This document shows positions 31,659-41,370 of a DNA stretch of 44,675 bases, in pieces. Under the pieces are notes generated by a model, which was given only the letters and a program-made list of their open reading frames with translations, had not been told where the DNA came from and made no database searches. This DNA comes from Verrucomicrobiales bacterium. GTDB taxonomy: Bacteria > Verrucomicrobiota > Verrucomicrobiia > Verrucomicrobiales > V1-33. The stretch spans positions 1-44,675 of the forward strand of contig JAGNEJ010000032.1 of NCBI GenBank assembly GCA_018003315.1, given 5' to 3'. The position numbers were made by a program, and so were the translations under genes. Every line of letters starts with the position of its first letter. Within the stretch, counting starts at the first letter, position 1.

Positions 31659-32678
31659 ATGGAAACCTCACTGCCCAGATTCTGCATCATCGTTCCCTGC
31701 TACAACGAAGAGGATTCCATTCCCGCCCTGGTCGAAAAATTGACGCCCGCCCTGGATGCGGCTGCGGATGGCGACTGGCAGGTGCTGCTGGTGGATGACG
31801 GCAGCAGCGACGGCACCGCCCGCATGATCTGGGAATTGAACACCCGCGACCGCCGGTTTCAGGGATTGAGACTTTCCAGAAATTTCGGCCACCAGCCCGC
31901 GGTCACCGCCGGTCTCCAGCATGCCAGCGGCCAATGCATTGGCGTGATTGACTGCGACCTGCAGGATCCCGTGGAGATCCTCGTGCAGCTCTATGAAAAA
32001 GTTTCCTCCGGTGAGTGGGATGTGTGTTCCGGCGTCCGCGGGCACCGCGAGGAGGCTCCCTGGTGGCTGCGGTGTGCCTACAGGCTCTTCTACCGGTTCA
32101 TGGCCTGGATGGCGGAACATGACTATACGCTGGATTCCGGCGACTTCTGCGTTTTCAACCGCCGCGTTCACCGCTCGCTCCTTGCCCTGCGGGAAACACT
32201 CTGGGTGCCGCGGGGACTGCGCAGCTGGGTGGGCTTTCGCCAGACCACCCTCACCTATCGCAGGCCGCCCCGTGTCCACGGGCAGAGCAAGTACAACGTT
32301 TCCCGGCTCATGAAACTGGCGGTCAGCAACATCACCAGCTTCAGCACCGCACCGCTGCGTCTGGCCACCTGGATCGGCCTGCGCATGGGCCTGCTCACCC
32401 TGCTGGCCGGACTTGTTTTCCTCATCAACCGGCTTTTCCCAAATCTGTTTCCCTTTGGTTATCGCATCGAAGAAGGCCGCGGCACCGCCACCATCGTCCT
32501 CTACGGTTCCTTCATTGCATCGATGCTCTTTTTCTGCCTCGGCATCATGGGTGAATACATCGCAGTCATCGTCAAGGAGGTGAAACGCCGCCCGTCATCA
32601 ATCGTCATGGAACGCACTCCGGGCCTGCCGGGATCCGGTGACGGAATTTCCACCGGCCAGCTCGCATCCGGCTCATGA
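31659..32678 (+). CDS. GT2 glycosyltransferase, DPM1/GtrB-like, membrane-bound
   Basis: Family 2 glycosyltransferase that likely loads a sugar from a nucleotide sugar onto a polyprenyl phosphate carrier. It has 339 residues. The N-terminal GT-A domain shows CIIVPCYNEEDSIPALVEKL, LLVDDGSSDGTA and the DCDLQDP metal motif; RNFGHQPAVTAGLQHASGQ is typical of this subfamily. Two transmembrane helices follow at about 230-300 (MGLLTLLAGLVFLIN and LYGSFIASMLFFCLGIMGEY). It overlaps the next gene by four bases (ATGA), and the pair probably makes and uses a lipid-linked sugar at the membrane. Confidence 0.9.
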   Translation: METSLPRFCIIVPCYNEEDSIPALVEKLTPALDAAADGDWQVLLVDDGSSDGTARMIWELNTRDRRFQGLRLSRNFGHQPAVTAGLQHASGQCIGVIDCDLQDPVEILVQLYEKVSSGEWDVCSGVRGHREEAPWWLRCAYRLFYRFMAWMAEHDYTLDSGDFCVFNRRVHRSLLALRETLWVPRGLRSWVGFRQTTLTYRRPPRVHGQSKYNVSRLMKLAVSNITSFSTAPLRLATWIGLRMGLLTLLAGLVFLINRLFPNLFPFGYRIEEGRGTATIVLYGSFIASMLFFCLGIMGEYIAVIVKEVKRRPSSIVMERTPGLPGSGDGISTGQLASGS

Positions 32679-34615
32679 CTGCCCGGTTCACAAAGGGGCT
32701 GCGTCTCCTGCTGCGCCTGCTTCCCTGGGCGCTGGTGCTGCTGCCCGCGGCGGCTGCGGCTTGGCTGCTGGAGCGCCATGTGGTGAATGTCCCATTCCTT
32801 GATGACTGGATGTTCACCGAAATGTATGAAAAGGCGCGCGGTCAGCACGGCGGCCTCTCGCTGCACGATTTTTTTGCCGTGCAGATGGAACATCGTCTGG
32901 CCTGGCCACGGCTGGTGATCATCCTGCTCGACAAAATCTGCCCCGGCCGATTCGATGCCCAGTGCTGGGTGACGTTCGGACTGCTCTGCCTCACCTTTCT
33001 CAATGTTGGCTGGCTGCTGCGCCGCTCCGCCGGAGCGTTTTCCGCCTGGTGGCCGGTGCTTGCCCTGGCGGGGATGGCTATCTTTTCGCCGGTGCAGTAT
33101 CAGATCCTGCTCTGGCCGATGATGTTTCAGGTGGCCACGCCTGCCGCGGCGTTGACCTCCGGGTTGGTCATCATGGATCTGCGGCGGCTTCCGTTGTGGC
33201 TTCGCTTTGCGCTGTGTGCGCTGTGCGCCTCCGCGGCCAGCCTCAGCATTGCCAGCGGCCTGCTCGTCTGGGTCCTCCTGATCCCGGTTGTCCTGTGGGG
33301 TGCGGGTCTGGAATCATGGAAAGTGCGCCTTCGTTTCGGAGGGCTTTGGGTGACGGCCTTCGCCGTTTTCGCCGCCCTTTACTTTCATAACCTGAAAAAT
33401 GAAACCGAAGGGCAGTTCGCTTACCGGGCCGCCCAGGAAGAAGTGACAGCCACCAAGGGGATTTCGGCACTGCTTCGCGATCCAGTGCAGGCAGTTCTGT
33501 TCACCGTTCGTTTTGTCGCCGGACCGATCTGCCGGGGCACCAGTGGTCCCATGATGGACCTGGCGCTTGCCGTTGGCGGTGTGTTTCTGCTGGCATTTGC
33601 GGGTTTTCTCTGCGTGTGGCTTTGGAAATTCAAGGATGCTGAAATGCGGGCATCCTGGCTCCCCTGGCTGTGTTTTGGGCTCTACTCTCCCGCCACCGGC
33701 TTTCTGGTGGCGCTGGGCAGAGCCTGGGTCACCAAGGATGGCGACAATGCGCTGCAGGCCCGCTATGTGATTCACGGCATTCCGCTGCTTGTCGCCGTCC
33801 TGGCGCTTTGCTGGCTGGCTGGCTGCCGTTGGAAAAAAAGCTGTCCTGACAAGGTGCTGATCATTTCCCGTGGATGCAGCGCGGGGGCAACGCTGCTGTT
33901 TTCAGTGCTGCTCGTCGGCTGGCTGCACGGCGTTTTCATGATGCAGGTGTGGGAAAGCAGCCGGCTCCGCGGCCTGGTAAACACCCTGTTTTTTGAACTC
34001 GGGACGAAATACGAAACCTGGGTTGATCCCGAAAGCCAGATGGTGTCGATGCATGAATTTGCCCTGCGCACCAACCGCATGGGGCTGCTGACGCCTCGGA
34101 TGTTCCGGACCAACCGGCTCGACCAATTCCGCATGGGACACGAATACCTCCGCGGTTCGAACGCCGAATTGGTGAATTTGCGGCTGGTGACGGATGACAG
34201 TGATCCGAAGTTTCGGGCAATCGCTGAAGGACATGCCAGCCTTCCATCCCGGCATCGGGTTGCCGATGGCATTTTCTTCGCCTGCCGCGACAGTCGTGGG
34301 CTGGATTCGTGGAAGATTTTCTGTGTGGCCCAGGTGCAGGGGATGCCGCTGCCGCTTGAGGATTCTCTTGGCCGCGACATGCGGTTTGTTTTTGGTGCGA
34401 ACAAGGAAGTGCTTCAAAACCTCGCCGGTTTTCAGGTGGTGTTTCCCCTGGATTTTCTTCCCAAAGAACCCAGCGAACAGGAAATCTCCGCCTGGGCTTA
34501 CGATTTCAAAAAGAATACCGTTTACCCGATGATGGGCCGCTACCGGGTGAATCTCGCCCAGCCCAAGATCATCAAACTGCGCAACCCAAACAAACCCGCT
34601 CCGCCGCCCCAGTGA
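32675..34615 (+). CDS. Polytopic membrane protein, possible GT-C-type glycosyltransferase
   Basis: It has 646 residues with about ten hydrophobic segments in the first 430 residues, then a soluble C-terminal domain of about 200 residues. The first long loop, right after helix 1, holds PFLDDWMF (D43, D44, W45) and MEHRLAWPR (E72, H73), which resembles the acidic first-loop motif of GT-C enzymes that use lipid-linked sugars. The partner GT2 gene would supply such a donor, and its stop overlaps this start. Subfamily and acceptor are not known. The C-terminal part (for example AWAYDFKKNTVYPMMGRYRV) is not recognised. Confidence 0.7.
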   Translation: MTARFTKGLRLLLRLLPWALVLLPAAAAAWLLERHVVNVPFLDDWMFTEMYEKARGQHGGLSLHDFFAVQMEHRLAWPRLVIILLDKICPGRFDAQCWVTFGLLCLTFLNVGWLLRRSAGAFSAWWPVLALAGMAIFSPVQYQILLWPMMFQVATPAAALTSGLVIMDLRRLPLWLRFALCALCASAASLSIASGLLVWVLLIPVVLWGAGLESWKVRLRFGGLWVTAFAVFAALYFHNLKNETEGQFAYRAAQEEVTATKGISALLRDPVQAVLFTVRFVAGPICRGTSGPMMDLALAVGGVFLLAFAGFLCVWLWKFKDAEMRASWLPWLCFGLYSPATGFLVALGRAWVTKDGDNALQARYVIHGIPLLVAVLALCWLAGCRWKKSCPDKVLIISRGCSAGATLLFSVLLVGWLHGVFMMQVWESSRLRGLVNTLFFELGTKYETWVDPESQMVSMHEFALRTNRMGLLTPRMFRTNRLDQFRMGHEYLRGSNAELVNLRLVTDDSDPKFRAIAEGHASLPSRHRVADGIFFACRDSRGLDSWKIFCVAQVQGMPLPLEDSLGRDMRFVFGANKEVLQNLAGFQVVFPLDFLPKEPSEQEISAWAYDFKKNTVYPMMGRYRVNLAQPKIIKLRNPNKPAPPPQ

Positions 34616-34658
34616 GCGATGCGCGGTGCGCGGGCATCTGCTTGGCCGCCGGACCTTC

Positions 34659-34976
34659 TCACCGGTTCCAATTCACCAGAACATAGGTCGCATAGGCGAA
34701 CAGCAGCACCACCAGCCAGGCCACCAGCCGTTTCGTGTCCGACCGGCCGATGCGAAATTGTTGGGATGATTCGGACATCAAAAAATCCCTCGCCGTTTCC
34801 CGGTCTTCGACAATTTCCGGAAACTGCTCCAAAGGCAGCCAAACCTTCTCCTGTAGATCGCAAACTTCCGTGCTCCGGCTGATCCTGCCGGAGTGAAACA
34901 GCTCCCGAATTTGGGAAAGCCAAAGCGGACCTTTCATCTGGCCGTCGCTGCCGAGGTAGAGGAATTGGGCGGACAT
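34659..34976 (-). CDS. Small GYF_2-domain membrane protein
   Basis: It has 105 residues. The N-terminal half is a GYF_2 (DUF4339-type) domain: FLYLGSDGQMKGPLWLSQI, ELFHSGRISRSTEV, WLPLEQFPEI; in other bacteria this domain is typically fused to or near membrane proteins and is thought to mediate protein contacts. The C-terminus is one transmembrane helix (LVAWLVVLLFAYATYVLVNW) that ends at the last residues, so the GYF domain faces the cytoplasm if it is a tail-anchored protein. Start at the ATG 34976; upstream frame is inside the next gene. It lies 31 bases downstream of the GT4 gene on the same strand and may be co-transcribed. Confidence 0.8.
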   Translation of the reverse strand: MSAQFLYLGSDGQMKGPLWLSQIRELFHSGRISRSTEVCDLQEKVWLPLEQFPEIVEDRETARDFLMSESSQQFRIGRSDTKRLVAWLVVLLFAYATYVLVNWNR

Positions 34977-35007
34977 GGAGGAAAATATAGGGCGGCAATC
35001 CCTTCTC

Positions 35008-37551
35008 TCAAGGCGCAAGGCCGAGGACTTTGCGGTAGCTCTCCACCATGCGCTGGAGTGAAAAGCGCTCCCTGATCCGCTCCCGCCCCGCCAGTCCCAG
35101 GCGCTGGCGAAGCCTCCAGTCGTGCGCCAGGAGAACCAGTTTCTCCGCGAAGGCCTTCGGGACGCCCCGCGGCACCAGATAGCCTGTAACACCGTCTGCA
35201 ACCTGCTCCGCCATTCCACCGTGGTGCGTGGCAACGACCGGCAGGCCGTGGGCCATGGCTTCCAGACTGGCATTGGGGCACCCTGCAGGTTCGGAGATCA
35301 TTGCAAAGATGTCGGTACGGCGCAGGAATGCCGAAACGTCAGCAAGGCTGCCCAGCCAGCGAACCGGCAGACCAGCCGCCCTCCGTTTGAGTTCGCGGAC
35401 CCAGGCCAGGTTGCCGCCGTCCGGTCCTCCGGCAATCTGAATCTCACAGCGCGGCAGATTCGGCAGCGCCAGGCGAAACGCATCCAGGAGATCCTCCAGT
35501 TTCTTGTCAGGGCTCAGCCGGGCCGCTGTTGCAATGACCAGTGGCGTCGTTGCCGCGTGGACTCTGCCAGTTTCAGGAACAGAAATTCCGTTAGGGATGA
35601 CCTGCACGGAACATCCCAGCAGTCTTGCTGCGGTGGCGGCTTCGTCCGCATACTTCACCACCACTGCGGACAGGCGGCGTCCGTAGTCGCTCGGCTCCAG
35701 GCAGGGCAGCCCGGTGCGGGGCGATTCAAAATACCGGAGCAGCGATTGGAAATACATTTCCCCCGGACTCACATCGAAAATGGGAATATCCAGCACCAAG
35801 TCTGCGATGAGCATTTTATAACTGGTGATGAGATTCCAGAAAACGATGGCTGCGGGAGCTGAGGAATCGATGTGCTCCAGCAGCATGGACACGGCGCTTT
35901 CCGCATCCATTTCCGAAGGCGGCGGGAGCGAGACGACGCGGATGCCCGCTTGTTGGAGGGCCTTTCTGCCAGGAGTAGGATGGCCGGGATGCTCTTCCAC
36001 CACCGCGGCCCGAACGGGGATGCCCTGGCGATGGAGTTCCAGCAGCAGCCTGCGGGCGCTGCTTTGCGCTCCGCCAGTGCTGAAATTGTTGCAAACAAGC
36101 CAGAGTCCCCTTTGGGGTATTTTCCTGGGTGGCAGACACAGTCTGGGATAAAGTGCCGCAGCCCTGGCAGCCATCGCGTGCCGGGTGAAATGCCGCGGCA
36201 GCGACGGCGGTGGCTTTGCCAACGCATCACCAATGGCCTGCGCAAACTGCTCGGGGGTTGCCCCGGGCGGCACCAAATGGATTCCATCCACTTCTCGGGC
36301 GCCGCCCACGTCCGTTGCAATCACCGGTTTTCCCGCGGCCAGCGCCTCCAGTTGTGCCAGGCTCAGGCCTTCGTGATCGCTCGCGGAAACGAGGGCGTCG
36401 CAGTCAGCCAGCAGCGGGGTGGTGTCCGCGACAAGGCCCAGCGCATGAACTCCGGGGGGAAGCGTCAGGGATTCCGTCCCGCTGCCCGCCAGAAACAGAT
36501 GCACTTCACGGCTGGGGAGTGCCTTGCGCACGGCATCCAGAATGGCCGGGAACCGGTCGAAGCGTTTTTGCGGCCTGACATTGGCCAACGCCAGCAGCAC
36601 CGCGGCGTCAAGGCTGATGCCACAATGCCGTCGCCAGAATCCGGACCGTGCTGCTGGCAGGTGGTGCGTGGGCACGCCGTTCCACAGCGTCCGGTGCGGC
36701 AGCATCTGATGAATCTGCCGTTCCACGGCCAGGGAACACCCCAGCAACAGGGAGGCATCGCCGGGTTTGAGTTCAGCCATTCCGCCCGGCCAGGCGTTGG
36801 CAGTGTTGTGCAAGGTGACAGCCACCGGCCAGCCGCTGCCAGTCAGGAACCGGATGTCACCTGCGGACAGAAGATGTGCGTGGATGACATCGGCACCAAA
36901 ATCCGCCGCGGCATCCCGCAGTGACGCACCGCGGTGCTCAGAGTCCGAGAGGTCCACGAACTGCCCCGGAGGCGGATAGGATTCCCGCGTGGACTTCCCA
37001 AGGGCTGCCAGAAGCGTTGGAAATCCCATGCGGCTGAGTTCCTCCTTCAGATCCAGGGCCACTTTTTCCGCGCCGCCTATTTGAATGGTGGTGACTGCCT
37101 GGACGATGCGCAGGCGCTCATCCCACTGCCAATCCAGCGCCGGCAAATGAATGACTCGGTGCCGCGCCTGGCTGAGCAGGCGCTCCAGGGTGCTCGCCGG
37201 ATCCTGCCCTCTGGCGATGCCGCAACGGAATGCATCCGCCGATTGTCCTGACAAATAACTGACAGCGGGGAGTTGCCGCAGACCGCGCTGCCACCAGCGC
37301 AGGCAGGAAAAATCCCCCCCGCAGGATTGCAACAGCCTTGCCCGTTCCCGATCCTGACCAAGCCCCACGGCGATGAAGTCGCCAGTGCCGGGCATGGCGG
37401 CTGCTTGCGGGCGCAGCAGCCAGGCTCCGGGTTTTGCCACCACCAGACCGTCCACATCCAGCAGCCCGGCCCGCTCCAGGCTGCGGCGGGTCCGAGCGAT
37501 CAGCCTGGATGGCGAAAGTTCGGAGACTGGCAAAAAATGCAGTGCGGACAT
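35008..37551 (-). CDS. Fused double GT4 glycosyltransferase
   Basis: It has 847 residues with two complete GT-B/GT4 glycosyltransferase units in one chain. Residues about 1-145 are an unrecognised N-terminal region. The first unit (about 148-470) starts IVQAVTTIQIGGAEKVALDL and has the EX7E block in DHEGLSLAQLEALAAGKPVI. The second (about 482-847) starts LVCNNFSTGGAQSSARRLLL and has EPAGCPNASLEAMAHGLPVV. Each unit has its own GGAE/GGAQ glycine loop, so both could be active. The ATG at 37551 was chosen; one at 37611 adds 20 residues. Two sequential transfers in one enzyme are inferred; product unknown, but the nearby GT2 gene suggests surface glycan synthesis. Confidence 0.85.
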   Translation of the reverse strand: MSALHFLPVSELSPSRLIARTRRSLERAGLLDVDGLVVAKPGAWLLRPQAAAMPGTGDFIAVGLGQDRERARLLQSCGGDFSCLRWWQRGLRQLPAVSYLSGQSADAFRCGIARGQDPASTLERLLSQARHRVIHLPALDWQWDERLRIVQAVTTIQIGGAEKVALDLKEELSRMGFPTLLAALGKSTRESYPPPGQFVDLSDSEHRGASLRDAAADFGADVIHAHLLSAGDIRFLTGSGWPVAVTLHNTANAWPGGMAELKPGDASLLLGCSLAVERQIHQMLPHRTLWNGVPTHHLPAARSGFWRRHCGISLDAAVLLALANVRPQKRFDRFPAILDAVRKALPSREVHLFLAGSGTESLTLPPGVHALGLVADTTPLLADCDALVSASDHEGLSLAQLEALAAGKPVIATDVGGAREVDGIHLVPPGATPEQFAQAIGDALAKPPPSLPRHFTRHAMAARAAALYPRLCLPPRKIPQRGLWLVCNNFSTGGAQSSARRLLLELHRQGIPVRAAVVEEHPGHPTPGRKALQQAGIRVVSLPPPSEMDAESAVSMLLEHIDSSAPAAIVFWNLITSYKMLIADLVLDIPIFDVSPGEMYFQSLLRYFESPRTGLPCLEPSDYGRRLSAVVVKYADEAATAARLLGCSVQVIPNGISVPETGRVHAATTPLVIATAARLSPDKKLEDLLDAFRLALPNLPRCEIQIAGGPDGGNLAWVRELKRRAAGLPVRWLGSLADVSAFLRRTDIFAMISEPAGCPNASLEAMAHGLPVVATHHGGMAEQVADGVTGYLVPRGVPKAFAEKLVLLAHDWRLRQRLGLAGRERIRERFSLQRMVESYRKVLGLAP

Positions 37552-37679
37552 GCAGGGGAAAATCGGAACCGAAGGTAGTGACGCCGCCGCGTCTGCCAAG
37601 TGCGGATGCATGGCTGATCTGTTGCCAGGCCCACAGAATCCGGCTGGCGGAATCCGACTTTCGCGCTAGCCGTTGCTCC

Positions 37680-39632
37680 ATGATTCGCCAGCATTTCATC
37701 GTCGGAACCGCGGGACACATTGACCATGGAAAGAGTTCCCTGGTCCGGGCCTTGACCGGCATTGATCCCGACCGGCTGCCGGAAGAAAAAGCCCGCGGCA
37801 TGACCATCGATCTGGGCTTTTCCCACCTGGCGCTGCAGGATCCCGAAGATGCGGAACGGGAGTTCCGGCTTGGCATTGTGGATGTGCCCGGCCATGCCGA
37901 TTTTGTGAAGAACATGGTGGCGGGGGTGGGCAGCATCGACCTCGCGCTGCTGGTGGTGGCCGCAGATGACGGCTGGATGCCGCAAACCGAGGAGCATGTG
38001 CAGATCCTGACATATCTTGGCGTGCGCCGTGCGGTGGTCGCGCTGACAAAAACGGACGTGGCGGATGCCGTTCTCGCTGCGGAAATGGTCCGCGAAGCGC
38101 TGAAGGGAACTCCCTTTGCCGATGCCCCGCTGGTTCCGACCGCGGCTCCGCAGGGACGGGGAATTCCCGAATTGAAACGAATGCTGGCGACGGTCCTGCG
38201 CGAAACACCGCCGCCGCGGGATTTTGGACGTCCCCGTCTGGCGGTGGACCGGGTGTTTTCCCCCGCGGGCATTGGCACAGTGGTCACCGGCACCCTAACT
38301 GGCGGGGTGCTCCAAAAAAACCAGCCGGTGGTGCTGCAGCCACCCGGCATTCATTCCCACTTGAGGAACCTGCAATCCCACGGTGCCGATGTGAAAACCG
38401 CCCTACCCGGCACGCGAACCGCCCTGCAGTTGGCGGATGTGGCGGTGGATGCCCGCTCCAAAAAGCGGGGGGCCCGCCGCGGGGATGTGGTGACGCTCCC
38501 CTGTCTGGGAGCACCCGTGATGGCACTTCATGTGCAGTTGGAGAAAACGCCGCGCAATCTCTTCGCGGCCAAGGCCGCAGAACGCCCGCTGCGGCACGGA
38601 CAGGACCTCACCTGGCATCATGGCTCCGGAGCACACGAAGTGAGGGTGCGCCTGCTGGCAGCCCGCACGCTGGTTCCTGGCGGGCGGTGTCTGGCAGAAT
38701 TAAAGTTCACCGAGCCGGTGCATGCTTTTGCCGGAGACCGGTTCATTCTGCGCGACCTCGCCAAACAAGCAACAGTGGCCGGCGGCATCGTGCTGGATGC
38801 GGACCCGGCTCCCGGCTCGCTGCGCAAACCTGGGCAGGTTGCCATGCTCGAACTGCGCGCCTCGGAGCCTGACAATGTCGCGGCGTTTGTGCTGTCTGGA
38901 GTGTCGCGCCAGGGTGCGGTGCTGCGGGAGGGGTTGTTGGCAAAAAGCCGCTTCAGTGACGACGAGATTCGCTCTACCATTGGGGATTTGGCTGCTGCCA
39001 ACCGGATCATCGCCGGGGGGAGCTGGCTGCTGGACACAGCCTGGTGGGAGCAAAAGCTCGCGGTCGCCAGTGAAATGCTGCGGAATCACCACCTGGCCAA
39101 TCCCCAAGCCATGGGGATGGACGTGGCGGAGCTTTCGAACCTCGTGGCGCCCCATCTTCCGGACCGCCGGCTCTTTGACGTGCTGGTTTCCGGACTTGCC
39201 GCCGTTGGATTTGTCAGGGCTGGAAAGGTGATCCGGTCCGCTTCACACCATCCGGGACTGCCTCCGCAACTGCAGGAAGCGGGAGCCGCCATCCGCTCCG
39301 CCCTTGCCGCCAGCCCGCTGGAGCCTCCCAACGTCGGCGAACTGGCGCCGACTCCGGCCCACCGGCAGGCGCTCACATTTTTGCTGGAAACCGGAGAGGC
39401 GGTGCGCCTCGATGAAAAAACCATCATCAGCGCGGAAGCGCTCGCAGGCCTGAAGGCGGCGATTTTGTCCCACCTGCAGCGGGCAGGAACGGCCACGGCC
39501 AGTGATCTGCGCCAAGCCACTGCCACCACGCGCCGCATTCTCATCCCGCTGCTGGAAAAACTGGACCGGGAGGGATTCACGCGTCGTCAGGGGGACTTGC
39601 GCTCCATCGGACGCAATGCTGTGCCTGGCTGA
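37680..39632 (+). CDS. selB: Selenocysteine-specific elongation factor SelB
   Basis: GTPase that brings selenocysteinyl-tRNA to UGA codons that are marked by a SECIS hairpin. It has 650 residues. G1 is AGHIDHGKSS (11-20), G3 DVPGH (68-72), G4 TKTD (123-126); GIDPDRLPEEKARGMTIDLGF is the SelB-type switch region. Domains II and III follow (RVFSPAGIGTVVTGTLTGG; EPVHAFAGDRFILRD). The C-terminal third has the winged-helix repeats that bind SECIS RNA (ending LLEKLDREGFTRRQGDLRSI). No selA, selC or selD is in the window. It is divergent from the double GT4 gene; 128 bases lie between starts. Confidence 0.93.
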   Translation: MIRQHFIVGTAGHIDHGKSSLVRALTGIDPDRLPEEKARGMTIDLGFSHLALQDPEDAEREFRLGIVDVPGHADFVKNMVAGVGSIDLALLVVAADDGWMPQTEEHVQILTYLGVRRAVVALTKTDVADAVLAAEMVREALKGTPFADAPLVPTAAPQGRGIPELKRMLATVLRETPPPRDFGRPRLAVDRVFSPAGIGTVVTGTLTGGVLQKNQPVVLQPPGIHSHLRNLQSHGADVKTALPGTRTALQLADVAVDARSKKRGARRGDVVTLPCLGAPVMALHVQLEKTPRNLFAAKAAERPLRHGQDLTWHHGSGAHEVRVRLLAARTLVPGGRCLAELKFTEPVHAFAGDRFILRDLAKQATVAGGIVLDADPAPGSLRKPGQVAMLELRASEPDNVAAFVLSGVSRQGAVLREGLLAKSRFSDDEIRSTIGDLAAANRIIAGGSWLLDTAWWEQKLAVASEMLRNHHLANPQAMGMDVAELSNLVAPHLPDRRLFDVLVSGLAAVGFVRAGKVIRSASHHPGLPPQLQEAGAAIRSALAASPLEPPNVGELAPTPAHRQALTFLLETGEAVRLDEKTIISAEALAGLKAAILSHLQRAGTATASDLRQATATTRRILIPLLEKLDREGFTRRQGDLRSIGRNAVPG

Positions 39633-39648: not shown

Positions 39649-41370
39649 TCAGATTCCTGTCTCGCCCCCGCAGATCTGTCCGTCAATCACCTGGGCCACA
39701 TGCCAGGAGCCATCGTCTGACAAATCGACAACCTGATCGAAATACCGCAGTTGTCCGCCATCCGTTCCGATGACCAGAGAGGTGATGTTGCGTTCGCGGA
39801 GTTTTGTCAGGACAAGATGCACTTGTGCGGGGGTGAGTGCCGTTCCAATCCGGTCGAGAACGGCGAACTCCGGTCGGGAGATCAACAGCCGGGCCGCCAC
39901 CAGCAACTGCTGCTCCGCCAGCGAAGCCACCGCTTCCCATTGCTGCCGGGTGTCGTAACCGCCCGCACGGTTCAGGAAGTCGCCCAGATTCAACTCGTGA
40001 AGCAGTCGCGCCATCTCCTCGTCACTGGTATGCGTTTCCGCTCCGCTGCGCAGCACGGTCTCGCGCAGGGTGCCTGCGAGCAGGTAGGGACGTTCCGGAA
40101 CGAAGAAGGCCAGGTCCAGATTCGGCCGGGTGATCCTGCCTTTACCCGCGGGCCAAATGCCGGCCGTGGCACGAAAAAGGGCGATCTGCGCCGCCACGCC
40201 GCTCCCGGTGATGAGCGTGCTTTTTCCGGTGGGCACTGTCAGGTTGAAATCTCTCAGCAGGATGCCGCCATTTTTGGGCGACTCCAGCGTTAGGTTTTCG
40301 AAACGGATGTGTCCGCACTGCTCGCACACTTCCACCATTCCTTCTTCGCGCTTCGCCGCCCCTCCAATGGCATCGCCCAGTGAACCGAGCCGGACCACCA
40401 CCGCAGCGTAGTTGGAAAAGGATTGAAACTGGGTGATGAGCAGGGAAAACGCTCCCAACAGGTGGGCAAAGGCCATGGTGGCCTGGGCGATGACGCCGAA
40501 TTCAACTTTTCCGGCGATGAAGAGCGGAGCGACAATGAGGGCCGGGATGATCTGGATGAGGTAATTGTAGCCGTTGGTGAAGAAGGCAAGATTTCGGTTC
40601 ACCGCAATCATCCGCCGCATGTTCGCCACCAGTTCATTGATGCGCTGCCGCAGACGGCTCTCCACGCGTCCTTCACGGTGGAGCAGGGCAATCTCGTCGG
40701 CATGTTCGACGACATGCAGAAGGTCGCGACGGAAATCCGCTTCGCGGTCCAGTTGCCGGTAATTGAGCCCGATCAGGGGTTTTCCCAAATAATAAGTGAG
40801 CAGCGAACCGACCAGGGCGTATGCGACGGCGACCACGAAAAGCAGCCAACTGATGGACCAGAGAACGCCCGAAAATGCCAGGATGGTGAAATTGGCATTG
40901 AGCAGCATGAGCACGAAGGAAAGCGTGACCGTGGTGAATGCCTTGATGTCATCGGCGATCCGCTGGTCCACATTTTTGATGGCTCCGGTGTCGTTCAGGT
41001 GGTAATAAACGCGCTGGCCGAGGTACTGGCCGACGAAGCTGCGGGTCAGCCATTCCCGCCAGAGCAAGGCAAGCCGCTCCTCACAAAACCGGTAGAAGGC
41101 GGATGCCCCAGTCAGCAGGACAAAGACACCAAGATAGAAGACGGTGTGAAGAAAGAAGCTCCTGGAATCGCGTCTCTCGATGGATGAGAAAAAGTCGCGT
41201 CCCACGTAGCTGTTGAGGACATTCAGACCGTTGATGACCAGCAGCAGCCCGATGAGCCCCGCTGCCAGCAGCCACGCCTTTTTGCGCACCGCGAACGTGA
41301 AGAACTGGTGCAGGGATTCGCCGAACCGGTGCCAGGCTGACTCCGGAATCTTGACGCTGCCGTCACTCAT
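39649..41370 (-). CDS. ABC-exporter-like protein (SbmA/YddA type) with degenerate ATPase domain
   Basis: It has 573 residues. The N-terminal half is an SbmA/YddA-type (ABC_membrane_2) transmembrane domain with about six helices (for example LLAAGLIGLLLVINGLNVLN) and the family segments WREWLT and NPDQRI-like NVDQRIADD (134-142). The C-terminal half still aligns with the ABC ATPase of YddA proteins, but the core motifs are changed: Walker A is GSGVAAQIALF (389-399) with no GKS/T, the Q-loop is FVPERPYL (Gln to Glu 426), the signature is SLAEQQ (483-488) without the Gly, Walker B is AVLDRIG (503-509) with Arg in place of catalytic Glu, and the H-loop is VIGTD (533-537) with no His. It cannot be expected to hydrolyse ATP. 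The frame is intact. Confidence 0.85.
   Translation of the reverse strand: MSDGSVKIPESAWHRFGESLHQFFTFAVRKKAWLLAAGLIGLLLVINGLNVLNSYVGRDFFSSIERRDSRSFFLHTVFYLGVFVLLTGASAFYRFCEERLALLWREWLTRSFVGQYLGQRVYYHLNDTGAIKNVDQRIADDIKAFTTVTLSFVLMLLNANFTILAFSGVLWSISWLLFVVAVAYALVGSLLTYYLGKPLIGLNYRQLDREADFRRDLLHVVEHADEIALLHREGRVESRLRQRINELVANMRRMIAVNRNLAFFTNGYNYLIQIIPALIVAPLFIAGKVEFGVIAQATMAFAHLLGAFSLLITQFQSFSNYAAVVVRLGSLGDAIGGAAKREEGMVEVCEQCGHIRFENLTLESPKNGGILLRDFNLTVPTGKSTLITGSGVAAQIALFRATAGIWPAGKGRITRPNLDLAFFVPERPYLLAGTLRETVLRSGAETHTSDEEMARLLHELNLGDFLNRAGGYDTRQQWEAVASLAEQQLLVAARLLISRPEFAVLDRIGTALTPAQVHLVLTKLRERNITSLVIGTDGGQLRYFDQVVDLSDDGSWHVAQVIDGQICGGETGI

Follow-up and report, generated by a model that had tools for sequence, protein, structure and literature searches.

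A catalytically dead but conserved NBD in a YddA/BclA-like protein family suggests an ABC-type pump no longer powered by ATP

SLiPTs such as SbmA/BacA have been proposed to descend from a YddA-like ancestor after loss of the ATPase domain (NBD), and no stage with a dead NBD is mentioned in this proposal (Ettema et al., PMC13316013). SbmA carries a glutamate ladder made up of E193, E203, E269, E276, E287, and E378 (PMC13316013). SbmA/BacA have been found only in Pseudomonadota, and BclA, whose transport requires ATP hydrolysis, occurs in four phyla that do not include Verrucomicrobiota (Smith et al., PMC12003926). Degenerate ATP sites are a familiar feature of ABC proteins, and in the exporters reviewed they are one of the two sites (PMC7756269). 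A stage in which the NBD is dead but still attached was not described in the literature searched, and no homodimeric ABC transporter with both ATP sites dead was found in the open-access literature searched, which is not proof of absence. Here we describe such an NBD in P0001, a protein encoded in the window, the whole stretch of 44,675 nucleotides of a Verrucomicrobiales genome that was analysed.

P0001 is a 573-aa pseudo-ATPase ABC-type transporter (39649..41370, minus strand, as are all features of the protein given below) with homologues of the same architecture, and its frame runs from an ATG through 573 codons to the stop without an internal stop; the earlier note had likewise called the frame intact. 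The transmembrane domain (TMD; residues 29-340, 40351..41286) has a type IV ABC fold according to Pfam (ABC_membrane_2), AlphaFold2, and a TM-score of 0.85 to Rv1819c, and includes the coupling helix 2 region (residues 221-240, 40651..40710), which was assigned by homology and is kept in dead-NBD members and diverged in NBD-less ones. The NBD (residues 347-562, 39685..40332) is called catalytically dead on the basis of its motifs, with a fold model whose pLDDT ranges from 73 to 92 by block and with purifying selection. The Pfam match to ABC_membrane_2 (PF06472) scores 133.5 bits against a cut-off of 24.4 and overlaps a weaker match to SbmA_BacA (PF05992; 52.6 bits against 24, residues 125-331), whereas the NBD matches ABC_tran (PF00005) with 15.3 bits, under the gathering cut-off of 25. 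The order of TMD and NBD on one chain, together with a YddA-like TMD, is that of YddA/BclA, the place in the TMD tree is beside intact YddA/ABCD-like proteins, and the functional ATPase motifs of this family are missing. Judged from sequence, P0001 descends from the YddA/BclA/ABCD branch but lacks the catalytic hallmarks of a functional ABC ATPase.

The motif comparison gave the replacements that the earlier note had listed and one more, in the D-loop. The former Walker A, GSGVAAQIA (residues 389-397, 40180..40206), is without G4, G6, the Lys, and the Ser/Thr; the Q-loop Gln is replaced by Glu426 (40093..40095); the former signature, SLAEQQ (residues 483-488, 39907..39924), has Ala for Gly; the D-loop Asp is T513; and the H-loop His is Thr536 (39763..39765), a position where His is found in none of 50 clade sequences. 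In Walker B, FAVLDR (residues 502-507, 39850..39867), the hhhhD pattern with its Asp is intact and only the position of the catalytic Glu is altered, to Arg507. The claim that every catalytic motif has been lost therefore goes a little too far: the window copy still has its Walker B Asp, and many clade members keep the Walker A Lys, this Asp, and the signature Gly. The label of "exporter" given to the protein was an assumption; its relatives include importers.

Searches of related genomes, GTDB species genomes, and three further groups gave about 100 different relatives, which the motif tables split cleanly into 50 dead-NBD proteins, the window protein included, and 48 intact ones. The dead-NBD proteins come from Verrucomicrobiota, Gammaproteobacteria, Planctomycetota, and Rokubacteria, share ~41-55% identity with P0001, and all have full-length frames. 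The intact set consists of a sister clade of ten and 38 more distant proteins, and the sister clade, at 36-40% identity to P0001 over the whole chain and 40-46% over the TMD, is the nearest group with intact motifs; no close homologue has them, an outcome in favour of the earlier note, which had named such homologues as a refutation. None of the dead proteins has the Q-loop Gln (Glu in 46/50) or the catalytic Glu (Arg in 41, His in 7, Leu in 2). The two Walker A loop glycines are kept in 3/50 and 1/50 and the Mg2+-binding Ser/Thr in 3/50, and the Walker A Lys (37/50), the Walker B Asp (41/50), and the signature Gly (32/50) are still widely present. The commonest set at four sites, those of the Walker A Lys, the Q-loop Gln, the Walker B Asp, and the catalytic Glu, is K-E-D-R (27/50). 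Because the same Q-loop and catalytic substitutions recur across the clade, we see a fixed, charge-swapped replacement pattern rather than scattered losses. The recurrence in other genomes that the earlier note had proposed to look for was thus found in 50 sequences, and the motif losses are, at the sequence level, a family trait and not an accident of one genome. Assembly error or chance was considered and is ruled out by this recurrence in many genomes. Within the clade, the window copy is eroded further, its Walker A Lys being gone too.

Trees were built from the TMD only, so that the trait was kept from shaping them. A single clade unites the dead proteins with two NBD-less ones. Its support is SH-aLRT 99 in the quick tree and bootstrap/SH-aLRT 100/99 in the careful one, where it joins the ten intact sister proteins in a 100/100 group. 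E. coli SbmA lies outside the dead clade on a long branch in the quick tree. These trees show, as far as the TMD records descent, a single loss of the catalytic residues, in the common ancestor of a clade that spans several phyla. The NBD-less proteins, L071 and L072, have frames of 363 and 373 codons that end right after the membrane domain, and they nest in a 100/100 subclade with dead-NBD proteins. No NBD gene was found in the 13 and 18 kb examined around them (the first flank ends at the contig end), and their neighbours, a 1,2-beta-oligoglucan phosphorylase (SOGP) and a protein family that we call fam2, are unchanged from those of dead-NBD loci. The same comparison shows that the NBD was later lost in some members with the gene neighbours retained. 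Two further candidates for NBD-less proteins, L059 and L066, were rejected as contig ends. Since the NBD-less proteins nest within the dead clade, a stage between ABC and NBD-less transporters is plausible, and to this extent the suggestion of an intermediate state stands; P0001 is, however, not an intermediate toward SbmA itself, because E. coli SbmA lies outside the clade and only two of its six ladder positions are matched.

A second YddA-like pair, L116/L117 from Gammaproteobacteria (G556, G672), has lost most of Walker A (GDSEATAKLF) but not the Walker B acids. The pair is not part of the dead clade, and its Walker A loss is independent. Methylotetracoccus oryzae (G426) has five dead-NBD copies (L085-L088 and L033) without adjacent GH94 or fam2 genes, and also encodes a distant intact YddA-like protein (L095). 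L094 (G051:C1:5707357-5707656) is a fragment of a related TMD, with 43% identity over 100 residues and an in-frame TAA, and is probably a decayed paralogue.

When closely related dead proteins are compared pairwise, omega has a median of 0.112 in the NBD and 0.091 in the TMD; the corresponding values for intact proteins are 0.208 and 0.159, in both sets from pairs that are not independent. As read from omega, the dead NBD is shown to be under purifying selection, which supports the earlier view of a dead ATPase retained for its structural role. The structure prediction that had been proposed as a check gave, in AlphaFold2, a full type IV half-transporter with every NBD element (mean pLDDT 82.5) and a complete NBD fold, although a homologue-based prediction would tend toward such a fold regardless. 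The closest solved structures are Rv1819c (6tqe; TM 0.85, Z 25.5), matched over the whole chain, and ABCD1/3/4. The coupling helix 2 region of dead members resembles the intact consensus, and its identity to the dead consensus is 0.67 overall, 0.43 in the dead relatives nearest to the NBD-less proteins, and 0.17 in the NBD-less proteins themselves. That this region is kept with a dead NBD and diverged without an NBD suggests that it still serves as a docking site for the dead NBD.

A GH94, fam2, or GH63-like gene is adjacent to the transporter gene in 32/55 dead or NBD-less loci and in 0/10 intact-sister loci, five of which have short flanks. The other 23 of the 55, including the window and all Methylotetracoccus/Methylolobus copies, are without adjacent glycan genes, some of them with short flanks. 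The GH94 neighbours are of two kinds, one NdvB-like, matching the phosphorylase domain of the cyclic beta-1,2-glucan synthase NdvB (8rf9, 4e-210), and the other of the SOGP type, matching in L064 the 1,2-beta-oligoglucan phosphorylase 5h3z (1e-187). Fam2 proteins (for example L151:4822-8049, L034:7737-10922, L031, and L055) are ~1050 aa long and carry an F5/8C module besides a catalytic part for which no Pfam catalytic family scores above its cut-off. The predicted model of fam2 has an (alpha/alpha)6 barrel resembling GH63/65/78/94/116 enzymes, and fam2 may represent a novel family of glycoside hydrolases or phosphorylases.

Across 388 Verrucomicrobiota genomes, a dead or NBD-less transporter and a close fam2 (at least 44% identity, a cut set after the list was seen) occur in exactly the same seven, and the other 381 have neither (Fisher p 4e-15, uncorrected for kinship between genomes). 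Counting any fam2 match, the ratio is 7/7 transporter genomes against 16/381 others (p 1e-9, kinship likewise uncorrected), and those 16 have only distant fam2 relatives (31-39% identity). Fam2 is absent from the genomes with the intact sister only (G054, G221, G437, G438) and also from three genomes with the dead transporter, namely G427 and the planctomycetal G435 and G436, and G426 has a distant fam2 only. A glycan role may thus not hold for all members, given the 23 loci without glycan neighbours and the three genomes without fam2. In the window's own genome, fam2 and an SOGP with SOGP_N, SOGP_2nd, GH94, and SOGP_4th domains (L151:8046-11381) stand together on another contig (C73), away from the transporter, whose own neighbours are selB and a gene with a weak GH10/GH42 resemblance.

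Immediately before fam2 and SOGP on C73, on their upstream side, frames read from their sequence as polysaccharide-flippase-like and O-antigen-ligase-like (L151:1923-4696) hint at an exopolysaccharide setting. In the window, selB (37434-39632, plus strand) is tail-to-tail with the transporter, an arrangement also seen in an Akkermansiaceae locus (L043:8202-10514), and ARAGORN found no tRNA gene in the window and so no tRNA-Sec. The region just past selB (31659-37611) contains GT2-like, membrane, and double-GT4 glycosyltransferase genes, and a glycan locus may extend on this side of the transporter.

From these results, we consider it probable, with a fair margin of doubt, that P0001 represents a type IV (ABCD/YddA/BclA-like) homodimeric transporter without an ATP-hydrolysis drive, in which the NBD would be a structural pseudo-ATPase and the substrate would probably be a beta-1,2-gluco-oligosaccharide. 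The strongest argument beyond the residues that the NBD is not the energy source is that NBD-less relatives retain the same partner genes. Mechanistically, a putative Glu426-Arg507 ion pair would fill the place of the attacking water and the gamma-phosphate, and the NBD would act as a nucleotide-free clasp on the coupling helices. Alternating access could then draw on the proton gradient, as SbmA does, or simply on a gradient of the substrate, which phosphorolysis in the cytosol would trap. The substrate, a beta-1,2-gluco-oligosaccharide or similar glycan to judge from gene linkage, would be processed by the GH94 and fam2 enzymes. Listeria SOGP is predicted to be cytosolic and is thought to work on imported oligosaccharides (PMC3960220). 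With SOGP thus predicted to be a cytosolic degrading enzyme there, import seems likelier than export. More speculatively, and with somewhat less than even confidence, a whole ABC family may have switched from ATP to a proton gradient or to a substrate gradient held by phosphorolysis, with a re-engineered nucleotide-free NBD as an essential clasp, in an independent, beta-1,2-glucan-linked replay of the ABC-to-SbmA transition.

The proton path that the earlier note had proposed to look for in the membrane half was not borne out in its SbmA form. Only two of the six ladder positions are acidic in P0001, D140 (corresponding to E193) and E210 (E276), in an alignment of ~20% identity that makes the positions approximate, and both are also acidic in the intact sister clade. 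When acidic residues newly acquired by the dead clade were sought, only D208 turned up, beside the older E210. No SbmA-type proton path is therefore demonstrated, and the SbmA-type glutamate ladder, tried as proof of proton coupling, was rejected with four of its six glutamates absent.

Of the other readings, the one that survives best, though we regard it as unlikely, is that the NBD binds nucleotide without hydrolysis and gates the transporter as a sensor or latch, as the degenerate site of heterodimeric ABC exporters may do. Most members still have the Walker A Lys and the Walker B Asp, so that the NBD may bind nucleotide; the signature Gly is kept in 32 of the 50 as well, and the degenerate site of asymmetric ABC proteins retains ATP for minutes (PMC7756269). 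This has to be set against the near-complete loss of both Walker A loop glycines (left in 3/50 and 1/50) and of the Ser/Thr that binds Mg2+ (left in 3/50), the negative charge in the Q-loop, the window copy without a Walker A Lys, and the same neighbours at NBD-less members. Somewhat less likely still is a membrane anchor or scaffold for the GH94 and fam2 enzymes that does not transport and uses the NBD as a docking platform. Linkage and co-occurrence with large glycan enzymes and the retention of an NBD without catalysis would suit such a scaffold, but the TMD is the most conserved part of the protein (108/306 columns at 90% or more), NBD-less members keep the enzymes though the docking platform is gone, and such enzymes are absent at several loci.

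A heterodimer in which the dead protein pairs with an ABC half-transporter that is still catalytically intact is very unlikely. Five genomes (G030, G289, G345, G429, and G433) encode the dead protein as well as an intact sister, and some others have a distant intact YddA-like protein, but the intact copies lie elsewhere in the genome and not in an operon with the dead copy, and ten examined genomes, the window's own included, have the dead form but lack any intact YddA/ABCD-like paralogue at E<=1e-20. An obligate heterodimer is thus rejected for most genomes. Least of all do we credit a decaying remnant without a role, which the earlier note had also doubted: the window NBD is among the more diverged copies (identity to consensus 0.46) and two members have lost the NBD, but this divergence is normal for its TMD (residual z -0.6), omega is ~0.11 in close-pair NBDs, the Q-to-E and E-to-R replacements are fixed, and all 50 frames are full length.

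How an ATP-driven pump becomes a secondary transporter is an open question, and this clade, with living examples of the working, dead, and absent NBD, lets the three stages be compared side by side. Within it, one can test in what order the changes came, what a catalytically silent NBD does, and how the energy source changed. The clade is also a candidate transporter for beta-1,2-glucan oligosaccharides, and automatic annotation of the dead-NBD group as ATP-driven ABC transporters is probably wrong in function.

In comparison with known systems, TmrAB, TM287/288, and CFTR share with the dead clade a conserved loss of catalytic NBD residues under selection (PMC7756269); in them one of two sites is degenerate, whereas a homodimer of P0001 would have no working site. 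Human ABCD1/3/4 and plant ABCD1 are similar in sequence (E-values down to 3e-59) and fold (Z 25-27), but they are active ATPases with acyl-CoA or cobalamin as substrates. Rv1819c, YddA, and BclA have the same TMD-NBD order and ABC_membrane_2 domain, with Rv1819c (6tqe) as the best full-length fold match, and differ from the window protein in that its catalytic NBD residues are replaced. The cyclic beta-1,2-glucan exporter CGT (7znu; NdvA/ChvA) resembles P0001 in its type IV fold (Z 25.1) and its beta-1,2-glucan context, but it belongs to a different ABC subfamily and is known as a working ATP-driven exporter whose partner is the NdvB synthase and not a stand-alone phosphorylase. SbmA/BacA, like P0001, combine an ABC-type TMD with the lack of a working ATPase (SbmA 9g3g aligns over residues 20-334, Z 23.4), and the NBD-less members L071/L072 are like them in architecture as well. 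Unlike SbmA/BacA, the window protein has an NBD, misses four of the six ladder glutamates, and sits on a separate branch of the TMD tree; it may work like SbmA, yet falls outside the SbmA family.
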